Shown in pieces: positions 2,037-51,727 of a DNA stretch of 64,000 nucleotides (positions are counted from its first letter, which is position 1; each line of letters opens with the position of its first letter). This stretch comes from Odiellus spinosus (Eukaryota > Arthropoda > Arachnida > Opiliones > Phalangiidae): the NCBI GenBank assembly GCA_963920705.1, contig OY987228.1:13809187-13873186 (forward strand). Direction: 5' to 3'. The translations under genes and the position numbers were made by a program. The notes beneath the pieces are model-generated. The model did not search any database. It saw only the letters and a program-made list of their open reading frames with translations, and had not been told where the DNA came from.

Positions 2037-3305
2037 CTCTAGCAACGTAGTAGTATTGCGGTAAATATTTATTATTAATGTTGAGGTAATTTCCTTAAAA
2101 GTAATAACCGATGGTACTGGAAAGATTGTAGATTTCCCATTGAAAAGAAAACCTCAAATTAATATCATTTTTAACTTAGAAAAAAAAAGCTCAACCCAAA
2201 AGTATATTTAGAAGAAAAACAATTTCAAAACACAACCAATTTCTCGGGAAATTTCGTTTAAAATTGAACCTAAAAGTCTAATCTATTTGTGAGTTTTATA
2301 AAAACTGGTATAGGCGAGGTTTGTTTTCCAATGGTAGCGTATCTTTTCGAGATCCAACAAAAAAATATATATATATAATAAAAAGATACGAAAAGCAAAT
2401 TAATACTCGTAGAAGTGAGACCGTGACAGAAGGAGAAAGCGCGCCATATCATTCTATATATTTCGTGTTTACCGAAAAAATACCCCCATTTAATTTATAT
2501 TTTTTTATATAAGTTTTATATCTTTGGTACGCGGATAGAAAATATTTTCTCCCTAAATGTACGTGATCTGATCTTTAAGAAGAACTCGACGGACGACGGA
2601 GAAAGACAGGCCTGCTGCCCAACAGTAAAAGGAATATAGAGGAAAATGAAAAAAGAAGAAGAAAAAAGAAAATTGTAGTCGGGATCATTTTTCTCCACAA
2701 TTCTCATTTTTCTCCCGGTGGCCCTATTCGTCTGAGTAATTGAAAAACTATGAATGCCAGTCTCCAAACCATCGATATTCCGAGAATACTCCCTACAAAC
2801 ATTTATACGTACATATATATTTATATCTAAACCCCTTACCATCATCTCCACAAAACCCGCACCTTTTTTAATATCGGAATACCTTTTTTTTTATTCGAAT
2901 CCTATTTATTGCGTATATTTTCTATACTTTTATTCAAGTGGAAATGATATAAACGGAAAGTATGAGGCGGATTGATATACAATGTTAAAGGGTATATTTG
3001 GAAAAATAGTCGTTATAAATTTACATTGAGTAGAAAATATTAATTTTGCAAATCTTTTCACCGTGAGCTCAAGAAAATTGTTTATCACTCGATGGAACGG
3101 ATAATTTGTTTTCAATATTTGTCTTTATACCGTTCTATAGGTTGGATATAAAGCAAACATTTATTAAAAATGACCCTACGTTTACGCTATAGTATTTTGT
3201 AACCCCTTTCAAACCAGTTTGGAATGATCTATATTTCTTAATCATTGTATTTCATAATCATATTCTTCTGTTGACGCCAAATCAGTGAATTTTATTTATC
3301 TAAAG
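2037..3305. other. Spacer between inverted MITE copies, non-coding
   Basis: AT-rich sequence with runs of TATATA and poly(A). Open frames up to about 110 codons on both strands lack recognisable domains and codon structure. Together with the flanking MITEs it forms the loop of a 1.8-kb inverted pair. Confidence 0.5.
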
Positions 3306-3581
3306 CTACGGTCACACTAGCGTTTCTTAATCAATTACCCGATATTCAAATCACCATGAATCGCTTTAAGCGTCACACGTTCACGCATTATCTTTATAAA
3401 TAGATTTATTGTAGCCTCATCTATTGGTTGTTGAAACCGAATCGGTATAAAACTGGTTCCCGAAGCAGTTTCGAGAAATCGAATCAAATCGATTCGAGAA
3501 AAGACGGGTTCTTGTCCACACGACTATAGCGAAACGTTTTGAAACGGTTTAAATCGATTTTAAAGTCTAATATGAACGCAG
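3306..3581 (-). mobile_element. MITE family 1, copy B (full length, inverted)
   Basis: Begins CTACGGTCACACTAG and ends ATATGAACGCAG, which is the reverse complement of copy A end to end with scattered substitutions. Shared internal blocks include ATAAATAGATTTATTGTAGC and CCCGAAGCAGTTTCGAGAAA. The divergence suggests an old insertion. Confidence 0.8.
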
Positions 3582-5220
3582 GTTAAAAGTGTTTAATATG
3601 CTTTAAAAGTTTAGGTATCATAAGTCCATAATCCCCTTTCCCGATAACAAAGATAGATTTCATAATTGATAAAATTATTTATGAAAATATTGTGTTTAAC
3701 TTCTTATATTTTTACATAGAAATGGAGAAAGAATACTTAGTTAGAATAGCTTAATTAGTACTTCCAAAGGAACGCCTATAGAGTACAAATAGTAAGTGTA
3801 CCTCAGGAAAGAAAAAAAAAAAAAAAAAAAAAACAGATAAAAATAGATAAAACCCCTAAAAAAGACTCCAGTGGCTAAAAATAAGTGCGCGCAGAGAATT
3901 CAAAACCATAAAAACCACGCCTTTTTTTAAAGGTCCATCCCGTAGTCGGAAGTAAAAAAGAGATAAACCATAGTAGCATTGAAATAGTAGAAAGCTGGGA
4001 AAGCCAAAAAAAAAAAAAACTCTTATTTTATTTATTTGACTTCTCCGCTTGCATGCCATTGCTTGTTTTCCACCGGAATTTCGTGCTTCTATTTGGCCAT
4101 TGCGGCTTCGTTCCCGCGGTTTTTTTTATGGATCCAGAGTTTACCAGGAGACTGGGGTTTCCTAGAAATCTGCCTTTGGCGTATAACCCACCATCAACCA
4201 GCCTAGCCATAAACTCAATCCAAAAAAAAAAAAAAAAAAAAAAAACCGGCTCTCTGGATTTTTTTATATAAAATATATCCCCATAGCGACTCTCCTAAAA
4301 AGGTCGGCTTTTTTTCGTCTTGTATCATATATTTTTCAATATAAAAGTTTAGTAGAAATAAAGACAGGGTTAGTGTTATGTAAAACGTAAGATATTTGCC
4401 TTCATCCCAACTTTAGGCTTAGATAAAGATTGAATATGAAAATATAAGAAGGATAAAAAACTCAACGCTATATGGTACCTTTCAGAAACCTACGTTGTTG
4501 TTTTTTTACAATATTTTTTAGGAAAGATAAGGGACGTATTTCATCCTGAAATTCAACCAGAACCATGGGTAACCTACTCACGAAAATAAGTTCCATTTAA
4601 AAGACATAGTCCCCACCTTTAATAATGGTGTAACGTAAGATTGAACAAAGCTTACATCCATTCGCGTTCTGTTGGAGAATGAAACGAAAGGCATCGAAAG
4701 GAAATTAGAAAGGGGTATATAGCGACACGTTTCTCCAAGTTTTAACTGTATTAATATCTAAGGGTCTAACGCGAATATATACTAAAAAGGACGGGAACCC
4801 TATAGTTTCTTGAAGAGACACGAGAAAAAAAAAGAGAGAGAAATTTTGTATTTTTATTCCACTCGGAAGCGGTCGAAATTTTGAAGGATGTGTCAGGTAA
4901 AAAAAGGAAGTAAATATATAGGTATACAACGAAAAGAAGTTTTGCACGCGCTTTTGAGCCTATTCTGTTTAGAGGGTATTTTTCATCGGGCTAAAAAAGT
5001 CCGTTGCTTTTAGCTAGATTCTACTCCGTTTTTTATTACAAAAACATATGGAAAGCTTGACAGCTACGAGATGCGGGTAGTTTTAGAGGTGTTATAAAGG
5101 ATACACTATCTTTTCGACACGTTTCTTTGCCACCTCGTTTAACAAGCAGTTTGAAGTCCGAAGGATTATAGGTTTACAGTAAAAAAGGGGTATAGATTTA
5201 TGTAGAGATTACGAAAAGCA
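3582..5220. other. Non-coding with poly(A) tracts
   Basis: Holds A-rich homopolymers near 3810-3833 and 4221-4245, and otherwise AT-rich unique sequence. The open frame at 4053-4271 runs into the poly(A) tract and shows no domain. Confidence 0.5.
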
Positions 5221-5261
5221 TTATGAGACGAGGATAAATAACTATTGTTAGGCTTAGCTCA

Positions 5262-5360
5262 AAGGGACTATCTGCGATTTTTAAATCGCAGCAAATTGTA
5301 CAGTCAAAGCTAGGCTGTATGCATAAGGGAACATCATTTTAAAGGGGCAAATTTCAGAGC
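5262..5360 (+). mobile_element. Dispersed repeat family 2, copy 1
   Basis: The unit AAAGGGACTATCTGCG, then a short palindrome (GCGATTTTTAAATCGC), AAGCTAGGCTGT and TTTTAAAGGGGCAAAT. The same order recurs at 23155-23295, and on the opposite strand at 10408-10476. The last copy ends in CGCAGATAGGGCC, which suggests inverted termini around CTATCTGCG. Confidence 0.65.
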
Positions 5361-5536
5361 ACGAGATACATGTTTTCGTTTTTACATTGTCAAAAAGGAT
5401 TAGCGAATTGAATATTAAATTAGCATTCAAGTCAAAAATGGTTACTATTAGGTTTAAGGATAAGGTTTAGCGAATTGGAAAAAAAGGTATGTAGATAATT
5501 TATGAAACAATGAGAATTAGGCTTAGCAAATCGAGA

Positions 5537-5756
5537 ATTAGGCTTAGAGAACTTGAGGGTTAGCCTATTAGGCTTAGAAAACTTGAGGGTTAGCCTATTA
5601 GGCTTAGAGAACTTGAGGGTTAGCCTATTAGGCTTAGAGAACTTGAGGGTTAGCCTATTAGGCTTAGAGAACTTGAGGGTTAGCCTATTAGGCTTAGAGA
5701 ACTTGAGGGTTAGCCTATTAGGCTTAGAGAACTTGAGGGTTAGCTTATTAGGCTTA
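5537..5756 (+). repeat. 30-bp tandem minisatellite, about 7 copies
   Basis: The unit reads TTAGGCTTAGAGAACTTGAG followed by GGTTAGCCTA, with a period of exactly 30 bp. Copies are nearly identical, with single changes such as AGAAAA for AGAGAA. Because 30 is a multiple of three, both strands show open frames with 10-residue repeats (e.g. RVSLLGLENL). These are artefacts of the array and not proteins. Degenerate, AGGCTTAGC-bearing half-units extend on both sides to about 5440 and 5910. Confidence 0.95.
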
Positions 5757-5910
5757 TCGAATTGAGAAAAGGTATGTAGATTAGGCATAGCGAATTAAAA
5801 AAAGGTTTTGAGAATTAGGCTTAACGAATTGAGAAAAGGTATCGAGGGCTAGGCTTAATAAGCGAATCAAAAAAGGTTGGTTCAAGGATTAGGCTTAATG
5901 ATTTAATTAA

Positions 5911-8019
5911 ATTAAATAAAGATGACCTAAATACAGGGACGCTTATGAGTCTATCATATTTATTTTTTCTCCCAAAGTGGCCTATGAACGTTAAATAATT
6001 CCATAATATTAAAAATAAAAAGTTTCAATGCACAAAGTAGAGATATATTCCAATAAATTATGCCTTTATCAATTGATCAAGAACCCCTTTAGAAATGTTT
6101 GAAGATTTACGCATCAAAGCTATATATTACTCTCATCTACAGACATCAAAGAGGCAAATAGTTAATAAGTCATAAATTATTCATTATTAACATCCCGATA
6201 CTGTCAAATACTGCTCAAAGCAGTTAATTAATGTGCAACTAAATTTAATCAATGATTGATTCTAATTATAATTAAAATTCTGTATAAAAACTACGATGTT
6301 TACTCAAGTTTGTCAAACTCAATCGCCCGGATCACGCTATACTCACAAACTCAAAACAAACTTGGCAGATTCAATTTAGGACAACCTCCGAAGAATTTCC
6401 TTCAAGAATAACGTCTATAAAGTATCATGTAGGTCACCTCGTAAAAAAATACGAAACAAAAATGTCTTAAAATCTACAACACCCCATTCATTCTCGTTGA
6501 AAACGCTAAGCCTAACGTATACATACATATAAAGGGAAAGAAAAACATAACAATTTAGTTCAATTCGGGTACCTTGTTTTCGTGGCATATTCTTTTATAA
6601 AACTGTACACAGCGGAGAAGCAATCAGTTCTAGAAAAGCTTCCCAAACTCCCACAGAAACCATCCTATCTTTTTTCTCGAGAATTAAGGACTATTCGAAG
6701 GCAACAGGGGCCAGGGATTTCAGCTTCACGTACATCCAATTCTTCCATACCGAGGGATAAAAACTTGTCAAAATCCTTCTTGGAAACTTCCGGGAGTAAA
6801 CTAGGGAGCGTTATAGAAGATTTTTCCCACACAACAAACACCTCTCTCTCTCTCTTTTCTTTTAGTAACCTCTTATACCCAACACTTCCCGCTGTTTTAA
6901 CCCTTTTTCGATGTGATGGAGAAAATCGCCCCTCCTTTCCTCATTCCTATAAACCGAAAACACCCGCTAGAAATCTCCCTCATTCTTCTGTTTTAGAAGA
7001 ACAGAACTTTTAGAATAAAAGCACGAATAAACAAAGAGTCCGAAATTTCAGGACGTTTCTATAAATCACTGTGGTTGCTTTTGAAAACAATAAGAGTTTT
7101 TTAAAACAGCGAACCTTGACATTTTATTGCTGTTTCTTGACTGTACACAGAATACCATAACCGGTTTCATTGCATATTTCAAAACCTTTTGTTAATCGAG
7201 AAATGTTAATATTATGAATTTCTTAGTACAGTTTGTTCAGCCAATAAAGCAACCTGGGGAAAGGTACCATCAATAACCAGATAGAATACATTATCTAGTG
7301 TTTTAATTTACGAATTGTTTCAAATTTATCCAACGGATTTGCGTGATTGGGTGAGAATCAGTCTCAGATTTCAGTACGTAAGAAGCTACACTCTCCTCCA
7401 TATCTATAAGAGATGATAGAAATATAGTTTGATCCTTATACAATCTTGGTCAACATTATCCGAGACTAGACGGATGGAGATAAGAGGATTTTACGATCTT
7501 GAAGCCTTTGTTATAGCGCACGTTTGTTTTATAGGTCACGTTGACCACCAGTATAATTTATTACCCGTTGACTGGAATTTGTCGTATGGATTTTGGGGGC
7601 GTACATAACTGCATCATGTATAATTTTCCTATTCGTTTCCTATGTATACCACAAAGATTAATTGGCAGAGTTAAATATTGCGTATATGCTACCAACTGAA
7701 AAAAATAGTCCATAAGCTTAATATTAGTTGGCAGAACAAAAGAGTTTAACTTGAAACATATTTTTACTATCTAGGCTCAAGCAGAGCTCCATGATTTTCG
7801 GCCTTCTCATGGAAAATTATTTTTAGAAGAGATTTAAAGGGTGTTAGTTTAAGTTTTATAACAATTAAATGAATACTTAAACGATGTCATATAAGTACAT
7901 TTTGAGAGTTTCACTTATAAATTAAAAACTACCGAATCTGTGAAAATTTTAACCAAATAACTTTTACTAAGTTTCTTCGCGCGTAAATCTTGATTTCGTT
8001 TATTGCAAGAGGTATATAG
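5911..8019. other. Non-coding; one unremarkable 143-codon open frame
   Basis: AT-rich. The frame at 6582-7013 (+) begins with GTG, is Ser/Pro rich, includes a CTCTCTCT run and matches no family I know. There are no convincing splice or promoter signals around it. Confidence 0.45.
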
Positions 8020-46400: not shown

Positions 46401-46694
46401 ATAAGTGAGGGTGTCACGGATTTTTTACGAGCTAAAAATGGAATTTAGTTGCATTTTCAACTATCCTATTTAATAGATAGGAAGCCTCACTTCAAAATTA
46501 CGGAACCTCCGCCGCTTTTAGGCTAGGTTTAAGGGATCTTTTCCGTAAAAAGACTACACATTAAACCTTAACATAATGATTAAAGAAAAGTTAAATGTCG
46601 AAATTGGGCAATTTGGGACTGCAGATTGTAGAGTATTGTAAAAATCCAACAAAAAAGCAATAGATTATATTTTTCACGGCCACTTTAAAAGAAA
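42959..46694. other. Non-coding, probably intron upstream of the ADAM10-like exon
   Basis: Holds a poly(T) run at about 43416-43442 and a GC-moderate segment at 44.45-46.2 kb. A frame at 45733-46041 (-) shows no domain. I could not identify a signal-peptide exon. Confidence 0.4.
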
Positions 46695-46738
46695 CTTGAT
46701 TAAATTTATTTTTTTCATCTTTTTTTGGTCTTTTGTAG
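46695..46738 (+). other. Intron end: polypyrimidine tract and 3' splice acceptor
   Basis: A TTGAT-containing possible branch-point region is followed by a nearly pure T/C tract and ends in TTTTGTAG immediately before the ADAM10-like exon. The open frame continues upstream through this tract as a Phe/Ile-rich run, which is intron read-through and not a signal peptide. No ATG opens it. Confidence 0.7.
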
Positions 46739-46931
46739 GGGATGCGCTGTCAGATTTCATCCGTCACTACGAGCCAGTCTTTGTCGAAACGCAAAAGTTG
46801 AAGTCAAGCGTGCCACTCGACGACGAGGACGACAACTCTGCCAATAACGTGGGTGGCAGTGTTACGGGCAGACAAAAAAGATCGGGCAAAACGACGCCAG
46901 ATATAAGACTCCAGTTCACTGCCCATAACCG
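46739..46931 (+). CDS. ADAM10: Internal exon of an ADAM10/Kuzbanian-like metalloprotease (start of prodomain)
   Basis: ADAM10 (Kuzbanian in flies) is a membrane-anchored zinc metalloprotease that sheds ectodomains such as Notch and Notch ligands. The reading frame gives DALSDFIRHYEPVFVET near its start and RQKRS followed by DIRLQFTAHNR at its end. This matches the order in ADAM10 proteins, where an L-N-x-Y-I-R-H-Y-E segment just after the signal peptide is followed by a basic R-x-K-R-type stretch and an L-x-F-x-A-H-G-R segment. Between the two lies an acidic, Asn-rich insert (DDEDDNSANN) that makes the region longer than I recall for human or fly. A T-rich tract and TAG acceptor end at 46738, and the donor GTAAGT begins at 46932. 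The exon starts after one base of a split codon and ends with two bases of another, so it is 193 bp. Its base composition is clearly richer in G+C than its surroundings. The catalytic HExxH domain lies outside this exon, and no other exon was found. Confidence 0.85.
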
Positions 46932-46937: not shown

Positions 46938-47443
46938 CATTTCCTATTCGGCTCGCGAAACCGGGTCACCATCACCATCTCTCTTGTATAAACCCTTCCG
47001 CGCGCGGATTCGAACCACACCCCCATCCCTCAAAGAAAAATGTTAGCGGGACAAAGAATCGTCTTATATATACCAAAAGACAGAAAAAAAAACACTTATA
47101 TTGCGGAATACATAAAAATATAGTGCTTTTTTTTTTAAATAACGTCGTAGAGAAGTTGGATCAAACAAGATGTGGCCATAAGAAAAGTAACTAGAATATC
47201 AATTCAATCGACAACAAATTCTTTAATCGTGAATGTTTTTGTGAAACTTCAGAAAATCAAATCTTGAAAGAGAGAGTGTTATGAAGGAATGTACCTATGA
47301 GCGTCCCAAATTTTCGCCTGGTATTTCCCCCTCCTCCAAGATCAATTAGGAAAATCTGTCAGTTATAAACTCACTCTGTTTAAACAGAGCAGGCGCCAGT
47401 TCACGTAAGAAGCATAAACGATGCTGCCCTGAGCGCCACGACA
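46938..47443. other. Intron 3' of the ADAM10-like exon
   Basis: No repeat or coding feature was recognised up to the CACTG terminus at 47444. Confidence 0.4.
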
Positions 47444-47589
47444 CACTGTAAAAAATAAAGGGTCGGATAAATACCTTTAAAGGTATTTCTGCTTGCCACC
47501 CCAGGCGCACCCTTTTAGGTACTTATTAATACCCTACTTTAGGGGTATTATAAAATACCTTCTATTAAGGGTATTAATGAAGACCTTTG

Positions 47590-47970
47590 GGGTACTATTT
47601 AGCACCATATATGGTATTTATTCAGACTTCAAAAAAATACTATTGGGGTTCGAAAAAAGACCTTTTGGGTCATTAGGGGTACTAATTGGTACCATATATG
47701 GTATTTATCCAGACTTCAAAACTTCGCTTTAGGGGTACGAAATAATACCTTTTCGGACATTAGAGGTAATAATTGGCACCATATAAGGTATTTATCCAGA
47801 CTTTGAAACTTCACTTTAGGGGTACGAAATAATACCTTTTCGGCCATTAGAGGTACTAATTGGCACCATATAAGGTATTTTTCATACTTCAAAATTTCGC
47901 TTTGGGGGTGTGAAGAAATACCTTTTCGGCCATTAGAGGTACTAATTGGCACCATATAAGGTATTTTTCG
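47590..47970 (+). repeat. 87-bp subterminal tandem repeat, 4-5 copies
   Basis: The block (T/G)ACTAATTGG(C/T)ACCATATA followed by GGTATTT recurs at about 47688, 47775, 47862 and 47948, spaced 86-87 bp apart. Each unit also contains TTTAGGGGTACGAAATAATA and CCTTTTCGGCCATTAGA. Minus-strand frames with a repeated IWCQLLPL motif reflect this array and are not proteins. Confidence 0.85.
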
Positions 47971-47989
47971 GGAAAATAAAAGATACTTC

Positions 47990-48520
47990 TTTCATTATTT
48001 AAATAGTAGCAAACCTGGAAGATTTATTTGTACAAAATAATGGGTTATCATACATCACAATGATTTAAAAATCAAAATAAATCCAGATTTGTATTATGGT
48101 TTCATGCATTTGAAAAAGAGGTTTTAACACGAGTTTATGCACTTTGAGAAATTGGTTTTTCACGAGGTTACAAGTTTGTTAACTTTAATTTTAGTACAAA
48201 GTTATGGGTTTGAAAAGAGGTTTTTAACAAGTTTATGATTTTGGTTTTTAAAAGAAGTTCATTAATTTGGAAAAGAAAGCTTTTTATAAGACGTTTATGC
48301 ATTTTGAGAAAGATGGGTTTTATGGATTTTGAGAAATGGAATTTTATCACAAATATATGAATACGTTAGTTTTAATCACAAATTTATGGGTTTAGTATTT
48401 ACCACAAAGATGGGTTTCAAAAAGGCCTTTTACAACAAACTTATTTTTAAATACTAATAATGAGTCTTTAATTACTAATAATAAACCATTAAATACTAAT
48501 TGTGAATAATGATTTATATA
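47990..48520 (+). repeat. Degenerate GGTTTT/TTTATG repeats
   Basis: Loose repeats of motifs such as AAGTTTATGNNTTTTGA and GGTTTTTAACA(A/C), about 40-50 bp apart. They grade into the 21-bp satellite. The derived Lys/Phe-rich frame is not a gene. Confidence 0.55.
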
Positions 48521-48524
48521 AAAT

Positions 48525-49545
48525 TACTATGAATTATTTATTACTAAATATGAATTATTTATTACTAAATATGAATTAAATATTACTAAATATGAATTAA
48601 ATATTACTAAATATGAATTAAATATTACTAAATATGAATTAAATATTACTAAATATGAATTAAATATTACTAAATATGAATTAAATATTACTAAATATGA
48701 ATTAAATATTACTAAATATGAATTAAATATTACTAATTATGAATTAAATATTACTAATTATGAATTAAATATTACTAATTATGAATTAAATATTACTAAT
48801 TATGAATTAAATATTACTAATTATGAATTAAATATTACTAATTATGAATTAAATATTACTAATTATGAATTAAATATTACTAATTATGAATTAAATATTA
48901 CTAATTATGAATTAAATATTACTAATTATGAATTAAATATTACTAATTATGAATTAAATATTACTAATTATGAATTAAATATTACTAATTATGAATTAAA
49001 TATTACTAATTATGAATTAAATATTACTAATTATGAATTAAATATTACTAATTATGAATTAAATATTACTAATTATGAATTAAATATTACTAATTATGAA
49101 TTAAATATTACTAATTATGAATTAAATATTACTAATTATGAATTAAATATTACTAATTATGAATTAAATATTACTAATTATGAATTAAATATTACTAATT
49201 ATGAATTAAATATTACTAATTATGAATTAAATATTACTAATTATGAATTATTAATTATTTAATACGAATTATTAATTATTTAATACGAATTATTAATTAT
49301 TTAATACGAATTATTAATTATTTAATACGAATTATTAATTATTTAATACGAATTATTAATTATTTAATACGAATTATTAATTATTTAATACGAATTATTA
49401 ATTATTTAATACGAATTATTAATTATTTAATACGAATTATTAATTATTTAATACGAATTATTAATTATTTAATACGAATTATTAATTATTTAATACGAAT
49501 TATTAATTATTTAATACGAATTATTTAATACGAATTATTAATAAG
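48525..49545 (+). repeat. 21-bp AT-rich satellite in three variant blocks, about 48 copies
   Basis: Block 1 (to about 48725) repeats ATTACTAAATATGAATTAAA+T. Block 2 (to about 49245) repeats ATTACTAATTATGAATTAAA+T. Block 3 (to about 49545) repeats ATTATTAATTATTTAATACG+A. The period stays 21 bp throughout and units inside a block are almost identical. The first few units of block 1 carry ATTATTT in place of ATTAAAT. This points to successive rounds of expansion of single variants. Confidence 0.95.
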
Positions 49546-49574
49546 AGAAATTAATCCAGTAATTATTAAATTCT

Positions 49575-49760
49575 GATCTAGTATTAATAATCCATGAAAA
49601 ATCCATTTTAATTATAATTGGTCTAATCATAGTTAATTTGATTCTATCATCAATAAATTTCAATCAGTCATAAAGCTTTAAATAAATTTAATCACTTTTA
49701 TTGGTAAAATTATGATTAATTTTAATTTAGATTAGGATTAGCTTCATCGATTAGATTTAT
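49575..49760 (+). repeat. Dispersed AT-rich repeat, second copy
   Basis: Matches 12430-12650 in order: AAAAATCCATTTTAATTATA, CTAATCATAGTTAATTTGAT, TCTATCATCAATAAA and TCATAAAGCTT. It lies inside the CACTA-like element. Confidence 0.6.
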
Positions 49761-50191
49761 TTTTGATTATATTTAAATTATAATTATTAAAATGGAATTA
49801 AGCGTTTAAACTGTGTTAATCGATTTTATCATAATTAAATTAATCTTCTTCATCATTGTTCGATTGTCACGTGAATCAAAATATTATGTCTAAAATTCTG
49901 TTCGCCAAAGCATTTTCTACCGCTGGCAGCCAGTGTCAGTTAAAATTTCAAACCAGTGGGGTTATTTTTTCATGGTGATTTTCAGTCAACACTTTCTACC
50001 CCATCCTCCCTTTGCGGTAAGCCTGATAAAGAAAAATTCTTCACTCCACTGCTCTGTATAATACAACAACGGTTGTTAAAAGCCTCCTCCATTCGATCCT
50101 TGCTTTTACGTGTCGGAACCACAGGTCGGTTCTTGCCCTGTAGTTGGATTAGACCAACACTTCTGTTCTGCCGTTAATAGTCTCATGTGTA

Positions 50192-50275
50192 GGCCTTGGT
50201 AGCTCAGTTGGTTAGAGTGTGGGACAGTTACTGAACGACCCTGAGGTGTGTCTTATGTTGTCATATCAGGATTCC
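50192..50275 (+). repeat. tRNA-like fragment (possible SINE head or tRNA pseudogene)
   Basis: GGCCTTGGTAGCTCAGTTGG followed by TTAGAGTGTGGGACAG resembles the 5' half of a tRNA and carries a perfect A-box (TAGCTCAGTTGG). No proper B-box (GGTTCGAATCC) or closing acceptor stem follows, so it is not a working tRNA gene. Flanking sequence has short direct repeats such as GGTTGTTAAAA followed by CCT(C/T)CTCCAT at 50068 and 50307. Confidence 0.6.
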
Positions 50276-51174
50276 TGTTTATCCACTTAAATCATGTTTA
50301 AACCGTACCTAATGGTTGTTAAAAACCTTCTCCATACCATGTTATTCTATCTTTTAGGACAGTGATCGGCAGAATAAACTTTCCCTTTTCTGTTATATCA
50401 GAATCACATTCAGTTTGTTCCTGAAAAAATAAGAGTCCTTCACTCCTTCTTCAAGTTGAAATAACTAGCAAAGGCTTAAGCTTGATAGGATTATGCTAAG
50501 CAGCTAACATACTCGTGAAGGAATTATTGCATATGTTCGAAACTTGAAATTTGGAAAATCATGAAGATTTATAACATATATAAATTAATAGATATGCCTA
50601 CCTTTCAATCTGCGTTTCAGCAACCTTCGATTTCAAAGAGTTAAATACAAGTTAAGCTTGCGCCTAAATTGATGGCTCGGTCGCGTCTCTACTACGAAGA
50701 AAACAGAGAGAATACTTAAACGAAGGAGGTGAAAGAGACTGCCCGTTTTCCCGTTCTAACGCGCTTACCGCTTATTGTGCGCTAGGTACAAGCTTCCACT
50801 CGTTTGTTACTCACTCAGAGATAGATATCACCTCCGCCAAAAAGTGACGCGGCACCAAGCGTTATTCTCTCGTCAAGGTTGCTAGAGATATTTCGCTGGG
50901 TTCTAGTCTCCCGAGCGTTAACATTTGAATCCACAAAAATACAATTTAAACCTTGGGGCGCTTGTTTTAGTTTACCTTCTATTAATGACATTAGATATTT
51001 TACTTTTCTCCAATTAAGATCCCAATAAAACATTAATATCAACAATATGTATAATAAGACTTACAATGATTTTGGAATAAAATTTCCAGCGTAGTTTTCA
51101 TTTCGCGGGGTTTCCGATTGTTAAGCCTAATTTGACAAAAGTAGGCTTAGGAAAAAAATTTCACGAGCTTGGTT
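50276..51174. other. Interior of the CACTA-like element, unremarkable
   Basis: Includes GC-moderate sequence at 50640-50900 with a 76-codon minus-strand frame of no recognised family. Confidence 0.4.
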
Positions 51175-51396
51175 CGATAATACCTTTTGGGGTTTTAAAA
51201 AAGACCTTCTTTACTCATTAAATACCCTTCGGAAGTCGAAAATACCCTAATGGTATTGAAAAGAACCCTTAAAAATTCTTAGGGTGTGTTTAAGCGCCAT
51301 CGGTAGTACTAATAAATACCTTAAGGTGTTTTTCCATTAAAAGTACCTTTTAAGGCGTTTAAAACGACCCCAAAAATACCTTCATTTTTTACAGTG

Positions 51397-51727
51397 CATG
51401 ACCCTGATGTCACCGTTAAAATTGATTTCTTTGCGTAGATAAATTACTTAAAGTCGCCAACACGGAGTCGGCGCTAGTTTCAGGTGTTGCTTGTACTTAA
51501 ACTGCCTCCCTATACTGATATAAGTCCCTTATTTGGTGGAAGCCATGAGGTAAATCGACGATCACCCTAATTTCACTCTTCAAAATGTACATAACCCAAA
51601 TAGTCACCCTTTTCTAATAGATTACCACCGACTTCGTGATCTACATTATAACGCAAATATATGGTTAGTACTTTAAGGGACATAACCAAAACAGAATATC
51701 TCCGCAAATAGTCGAATTTAGTTCATG

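Follow-up and report, generated by a model that had tools for sequence, protein, structure and literature searches.

We analyzed a 64,000-nucleotide stretch of the Odiellus spinosus genome (hereafter the window, C4:13809187-13873186) and used the whole assembly, 443 Mb in 286 contigs, as the searched genome. Positions 47444-51396 of the window are one full-length member of a dispersed transposon family, whose parts are listed in Table 1. The main structural claims of the initial annotation held for this copy. The 18-bp inverted ends are indeed near perfect, and TRF recovered both internal repeats, the 87-bp array and the satellite of about 1 kb, the latter as 47 copies of a 21-bp unit with 97% match at 48528-49524. 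The packing of AATACC/GGTATT motifs at both ends was equally clear: the first 560 bp contain 14 and the last 240 bp contain 6, with none in the 3153 bp between. This is a density of 25 per kb at each end, compared with 0.72 per kb for the window outside the element; at neither end were these counts reached by any of 1000 dinucleotide shuffles. The window copy therefore shows subterminal short repeats at both ends, a feature of CACTA/EnSpm (CMC) elements.

Table 1. Parts of the element and its flanking duplications, in window coordinates
Feature	Position	Strand	Remark
Left target-site duplication CA	47442..47443	.	equal 2 bp on both sides in 20/21 copies
Left terminal inverted repeat CACTGTAAAAAATAAAGG	47444..47461	+	17/18 complementary to right end
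Left subterminal region, 14 AATACC/GGTATT motifs	47444..48003	+	25 per kb
87-bp subterminal tandem array, 4.3 copies	47591..47966	+	TRF
21-bp AT-rich minisatellite, 1099 bp in window copy	48444..49542	+	blocks of variant units
Internal unique region, no recognisable transposase reading frame	49543..51156	+	longest frames <85 codons
Right subterminal region, 6 AATACC/GGTATT motifs	51157..51396	+	25 per kb
Right terminal inverted repeat (CACTGTAAAAAATGAAGG on - strand)	51379..51396	-	32-bp right-end matches
Right target-site duplication CA	51397..51398	.	flank comparison

We also looked for other features in and around the element. Rfam (gathering scores) and ARAGORN gave no match in the window, and IMG/VR contained no exact match to 23 bases of the left end. 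Inside the element, TAGCTCAGTTGG at 50200-50211 fits the tRNA A-box consensus and ARAGORN finds no tRNA there, so that this A-box-like stretch is possibly a remnant of a tRNA or a SINE. The element had been placed in an intron of ADAM10. The upstream frame at 46690-46929 looks by eye like an ADAM10 prodomain exon; it had no match in Pfam and only two weak, unrelated ones in PDB (E 0.059 and 0.47), which leaves this host gene unconfirmed.

Genomic distribution and insertion sites

A 257-bp query from the left end gave 119 first-look candidates and a 251-bp query from the right end gave 116; all 40 scored in each search matched at 100%, those of the left end over their full length. With 32-bp queries and at most 3 mismatches, the left end had 106 matches in the genome and the right end 104, and the reversed control had none in either case. 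The two ends occur together elsewhere, as the reading of the unit as a transposon had implied: among 100 of the 104 right ends and 100 of the 106 left ends listed, 97 right ends paired with a left end on the same strand at a distance of 2803-8560 bp (median 3955), leaving three unpaired on each side, and the 100 left ends were spread over 22 contigs. From the 40 scored copies we fetched 20 (L009-L028), which with the window copy makes 21 in the comparisons; copies read at both flanks number 22 of about 106. Both ends, including the CACTG...CAGTG termini, were present in 20/20 fetched copies, with a right-end identity of 98.8-100%. This is a real dispersed family of about 100 copies, probably recently active, and the copies examined encode no recognisable transposase themselves.

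The exact boundaries of the element are confirmed by the 20 further copies, whose ends are the same although they lie in 19 different settings, L023 and L024 having common flanks. Results showed a 2-bp target duplication in 20/21 copies, and the 3-bp duplication anticipated by the initial annotation in 0/21. The duplicated dinucleotide was TA in 15 copies, CA in three and TT and TG in one each; L023 is the unmatched copy (TA left, CA right). When the flanks were shifted by 5-59 bp as a control, dinucleotides matched on average in 1.64 of 20 cases and in at most 4. An additional copy, L038, read later and outside the 21-copy count, has TA on both sides. As C precedes the duplication in 11/21 copies and G follows it in 12/21, the preferred target resembles CTAG. 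The flanks of the window copy had been said to share only CA, as a point against CACTA; they do share only CA, and there is no conflict, since CA is the whole target duplication.

A clean empty-site boundary was found at a paralogous site: the flanks of L024, joined by one CA, are identical at 158/158 positions to an unoccupied stretch lying 3' of the element in L021. The joined flanks of L023 match this same empty site save for two extra bases, a TA at L023:499-500 on the left boundary that is lacking from L024 and from the empty site, and that is possibly the trace of a conversion from another copy. Weaker empty sites were found for L027 (94% over 51 bp in the window with no gap, gapped to other repeat copies) and for L017 (93% over 105 bp, in its own tandem flank), and the matches for L016 and L009 were weaker, or gapped away from the junction.

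Divergence of the copies and turnover of the minisatellite

We measured divergence on the window copy and 19 others (190 pairs), excluding the satellite and leaving out L023 because of a nested insert. The unique parts of these 20 copies differ by 0.5% on average, left and right alike, and seven of the 190 pairs show no substitution over 2.9-3.1 kb of unique sequence, namely L009/L015 (2854 positions) and all six pairs among L010, L014, L020 and L027 (3055 positions). As the compared copies are near identical, a recent burst probably gave rise to the hundred or so copies.

The minisatellite behaves very differently from the unique parts. In the 21 copies, the array measures 371-2525 bp, lengths that come from one assembly in which collapsed or mis-joined arrays are possible, has a GC content of 9-13%, and is built of blocks of variant units whose order is largely conserved, with some variants private to one copy. 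Among the 190 pairs, none has identical arrays, including the seven pairs without substitution, and none has arrays of equal length. The difference in array length does not rise with the number of substitutions (Spearman -0.03, with a P of 0.64 that is only indicative because pairs share history). For example, L010, L014, L020, L027 and L022 are 0-1 substitutions apart over the 3055 aligned unique positions, L022 differing from each of the other four by one indel outside the array, and they carry 42, 17, 30, 27 and 24 main units and 7, 7, 3, 5 and 5 units of the last type, respectively. Five differing main-unit counts require at least four array changes, against one substitution. The minisatellite therefore gains and loses whole units very fast, as seen in the differences between copies.

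The pair L023 and L024, 13 kb apart, allowed us to consider changes at a single insertion. The two have common flanks and carry the same two private variants in the unique sequence left of the array, and their right-hand stretch of 1893 bp, flank included, is 99.9% identical. By these comparisons they most likely go back to the duplication of a single insertion, although they could also be misplaced alleles. Their arrays measure 1064 bp (L023) and 371 bp (L024); because what is most likely one duplicated insertion has unequal arrays, arrays probably change in the absence of a further insertion as well, although the unusual left dinucleotide of L023 leaves room for a conversion event. Units are most likely gained and lost by replication slippage or by unequal exchange inside blocks. 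We consider it unlikely that the minisatellite is instead drawn anew during or close to each transposition, for instance by gap repair or synthesis at donor or target; array length would then be set afresh in every insertion, and the family would be a dispersal machine for a hypermutable repeat.

We asked whether the same units also form arrays outside the elements. We counted 1445 exact copies of a 42-base double unit genome-wide (reversed control 0), which falls within the number expected in 106 elements as estimated from the 21 copies (1731, 95% interval 1185-2298), so that no surplus is left for free arrays of the exact main unit, a count covering exact units only. The 100 double-unit places listed are all on C1, inside four element copies; the listed end matches include the left end of each of the four and the right end of three. 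Outside elements, no exact unit of any of four types was present, either in 167 kb of flanks and window or in 70 kb of other loci. Thus, of the two roles proposed in the initial annotation, that of a non-autonomous family, lacking a recognisable transposase in the copies examined and carrying its satellite to new sites, was borne out, and the seeding of free tandem DNA was not.

Transposase source, classification and known systems

The genome does encode proteins with Transposase_21, the domain of CACTA elements. Transposase_21 (PF02992) and DUF1258 (PF06869) had 8 matches each, together at 11 distinct places, of which we read 10-kb stretches around seven (L031-L037); C1:4722157, C1:9519335, C4:2291361 and C134:127762 lie outside this reading. 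The seven stretches represent about five independent loci, since L033 and L035 agree letter for letter over 9175 bp and L034 nearly duplicates L031. In all seven, CACTGTAAAAAAT was absent at 0 or 1 mismatch, meaning that the family ends are absent from these CMC-type places. Five of the seven loci were also scanned for C[A/C]C...G[T/G]G pairs flanked by a 2-bp duplication; a single weak pair turned up, in L031 (13/16), which we rejected as it lies inside the part shared with L034 and not at its edge. Long tandem arrays with 20-bp and 164-bp periods were observed at three of the Transposase_21 loci (L031:6667-9983, L034:6667-8468 and L033:6456-8940); over about 8.4 kb L031 and L034 show 97% identity, yet their arrays have about 166 and 90 units, respectively.

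The reading frames of ten copies (the window copy, L009-L011, L013, L015, L016, L018, L023 and L038) were listed and contained no recognisable transposase; the longest frames of the window copy are short or made of repeat units, and the unique parts of the remaining fetched copies match those of the window. Among the three longest of the 97 paired copies, L023 and L038 were read and discarded as transposase carriers, as by eye the frame of the former is copia-like and those of the latter are reverse-transcriptase-like. Of the copies of 4.9-5.4 kb, L009 and L015 were read; the third of the longest copies, a second 6.9-kb copy on C84, and the two 2803-bp copies lie outside this reading. As named by eye, L023 holds a nested copia-like retrotransposon at 3175-7392 with an open frame of 1406 codons, and the 6.9-kb L038 holds nested LINE-like frames. 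The second C84 copy (G000:C84:692841-699727) is nearly equal in length to L038 and lies on the same contig in opposite orientation; the two are perhaps part of a large inverted duplication.

We also searched with end patterns. For the sister pattern CACTGTAAAAAATY, 20 matches compared with 22 in the reversed control amount to background. With the family excluded, CACTGTAAAAAATRB gave 32 matches against 14 in the control, and 11 of these 32 places carry CACTGTAAAAAATAC, the ATAC form (for example C5:13785810, C16:15018856 and C6:24512018); among the matches listed, none formed a plus-then-minus pair within 20 kb. The ATAC-form places are possibly a related family or the autonomous partner. An autonomous relative with the family ends and a CACTA transposase, as expected by the initial annotation, was thus not found at 7 of the 11 CMC-type places, in the frames of the ten copies or by end patterns.

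Taken as a whole, the family probably consists of non-autonomous cut-and-paste DNA transposons that have a CACTA/EnSpm-like (CMC-type) structure and a passively carried minisatellite. The CACTG...CAGTG ends, the AATACC/GGTATT arrays and the 2-bp duplication all fit an animal-type CACTA/EnSpm element, in keeping with the first assignment; as no transposase is linked to the family, this membership rests on structure. A transposase supplied in trans by a separate, unseen source would probably recognise the CACTG ends and the AATACC/GGTATT subterminal repeats, and insertion makes the 2-bp, mostly TA duplications seen at the boundaries. Judging from their near identity, the copies would have arisen in the recent burst, the AT-rich 21-bp minisatellite riding passively to every new site and then presumably changing by slippage or unequal exchange inside blocks.

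Other classes were weighed against the same evidence. A non-autonomous Tc1/mariner or pogo element, with a TA target and CA-type ends, would agree with TA..TA at 15/21 copies, but CA, TG or TT in 5 of the 20 matching duplications departs from a strict TA target, and the dense subterminal repeat arrays at both ends are a trait of CACTA elements that is not known from Tc1/mariner ones, which makes this improbable. Helitrons and Helentrons are not known to have target duplications or terminal inverted repeats, and the inverted ends and the 2-bp duplication rule against them. The similarity of L023 and L024 to a local duplication of one insertion could recall a segmental or satellite repeat spread by recombination with no transposon, a scenario to which we give next to no weight, as the differing flanks at the other fetched sites, the exact ends, the 2-bp duplications and the letter-perfect empty site contradict it. 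PIF/Harbinger was set aside on its canonical 3-bp duplication, found in 0/21 copies, with the reservation that relatives with 0 or 2 bp are described in the part of the source available (PMC12730594). There is also little to recommend a separate superfamily whose ends merely resemble those of CACTA: it would account for the missing autonomous partner, the family ends being absent from the 7 of 11 CMC-type places examined, but according to the available parts of the reports CAC..GTG ends with 2-bp duplications are known in animal CACTA relatives (PMC6004678; for the 2 bp also PMC1636069) and EnSpm-like elements with TA duplications exist, namely CNEST (PMC12810828) and ESTA (PMC12730594).

About a hundred closely similar, separate insertions of one minisatellite amount to a natural replicate experiment, in which array growth and loss can be gauged against a substitution clock in the same DNA. 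The most notable result is the speed of array turnover. Moreover, the copies separate the spread of a satellite by a transposon, which is seen, from the seeding of free satellites, which is not, and the combination of CACTG ends and a 2-bp duplication of TA type is also useful for marking the limits of the EnSpm-like elements of animals.

Tandem repeats linked to transposons have precedents, among them Atenspm/ENSAT1 of Arabidopsis. As described in the accessible parts of the reports, Atenspm/ENSAT1 and Jozin of Chenopodium are CACTA-type and linked to tandem repeats like our family, and differ in being from plants and, for Jozin, in a satellite that derives from a transposase fragment (PMC9659126, PMC7320549). 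Tetris of Drosophila virilis and the HINE Helentrons of the Pacific oyster are likewise non-autonomous and carry tandem repeats, of about 160-220 bp against 21 bp here (PMC4079207, PMC7492417, in part). Tetris repeat number is reported to vary, two nearly identical alleles differing by one repeat; unlike our family, Tetris makes 8-10-bp duplications and its repeats also form larger satellite arrays (PMC4079207), and Helentrons are another class. Since all four carry or give rise to satellites, the kind is already known from these accounts. In the open-licence literature, mostly titles and abstract openings, we noticed no family of such size in which array turnover is compared between substitution-free copies, which does not imply its absence from print.

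Concerning the CACTA side, the likeness to CNEST and ESTA, which by the available text are fungal EnSpm-like elements carrying a transposase, lies in the 2-bp TA duplication (PMC12810828, PMC12730594); CNEST is stated to group with animal transposases (PMC12810828). CNIRT6 of Cryptococcus, of the CACTA superfamily, has terminal repeats beginning with CACTG as here, and differs by its 3-bp duplication, its transposase and its fungal host in the passages available (PMC12810828). The closest comparisons are animal CACTA relatives, for which 2-bp target duplications are reported in the portions available (PMC1636069, PMC6004678). ENS1_Cis of Ciona savignyi and CMC-NA_1 share CAC..GTG inverted ends and the 2-bp duplication, CMC-NA_1 being one of ten short elements of 116-422 bp (PMC6004678, in part). 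SmTRC1 of Schistosoma shares the 2-bp duplication (in 7/14 copies) and terminal inverted repeats, and a figure legend marks a tandem-repeat region; it differs in coding for a Transposase_21 protein and in starting with CCC, as far as the available text goes (PMC1636069). Compared with SmTRC1, ENS1_Cis and CMC-NA_1, the non-autonomous element described here is about 4 kb in length and carries a long minisatellite.
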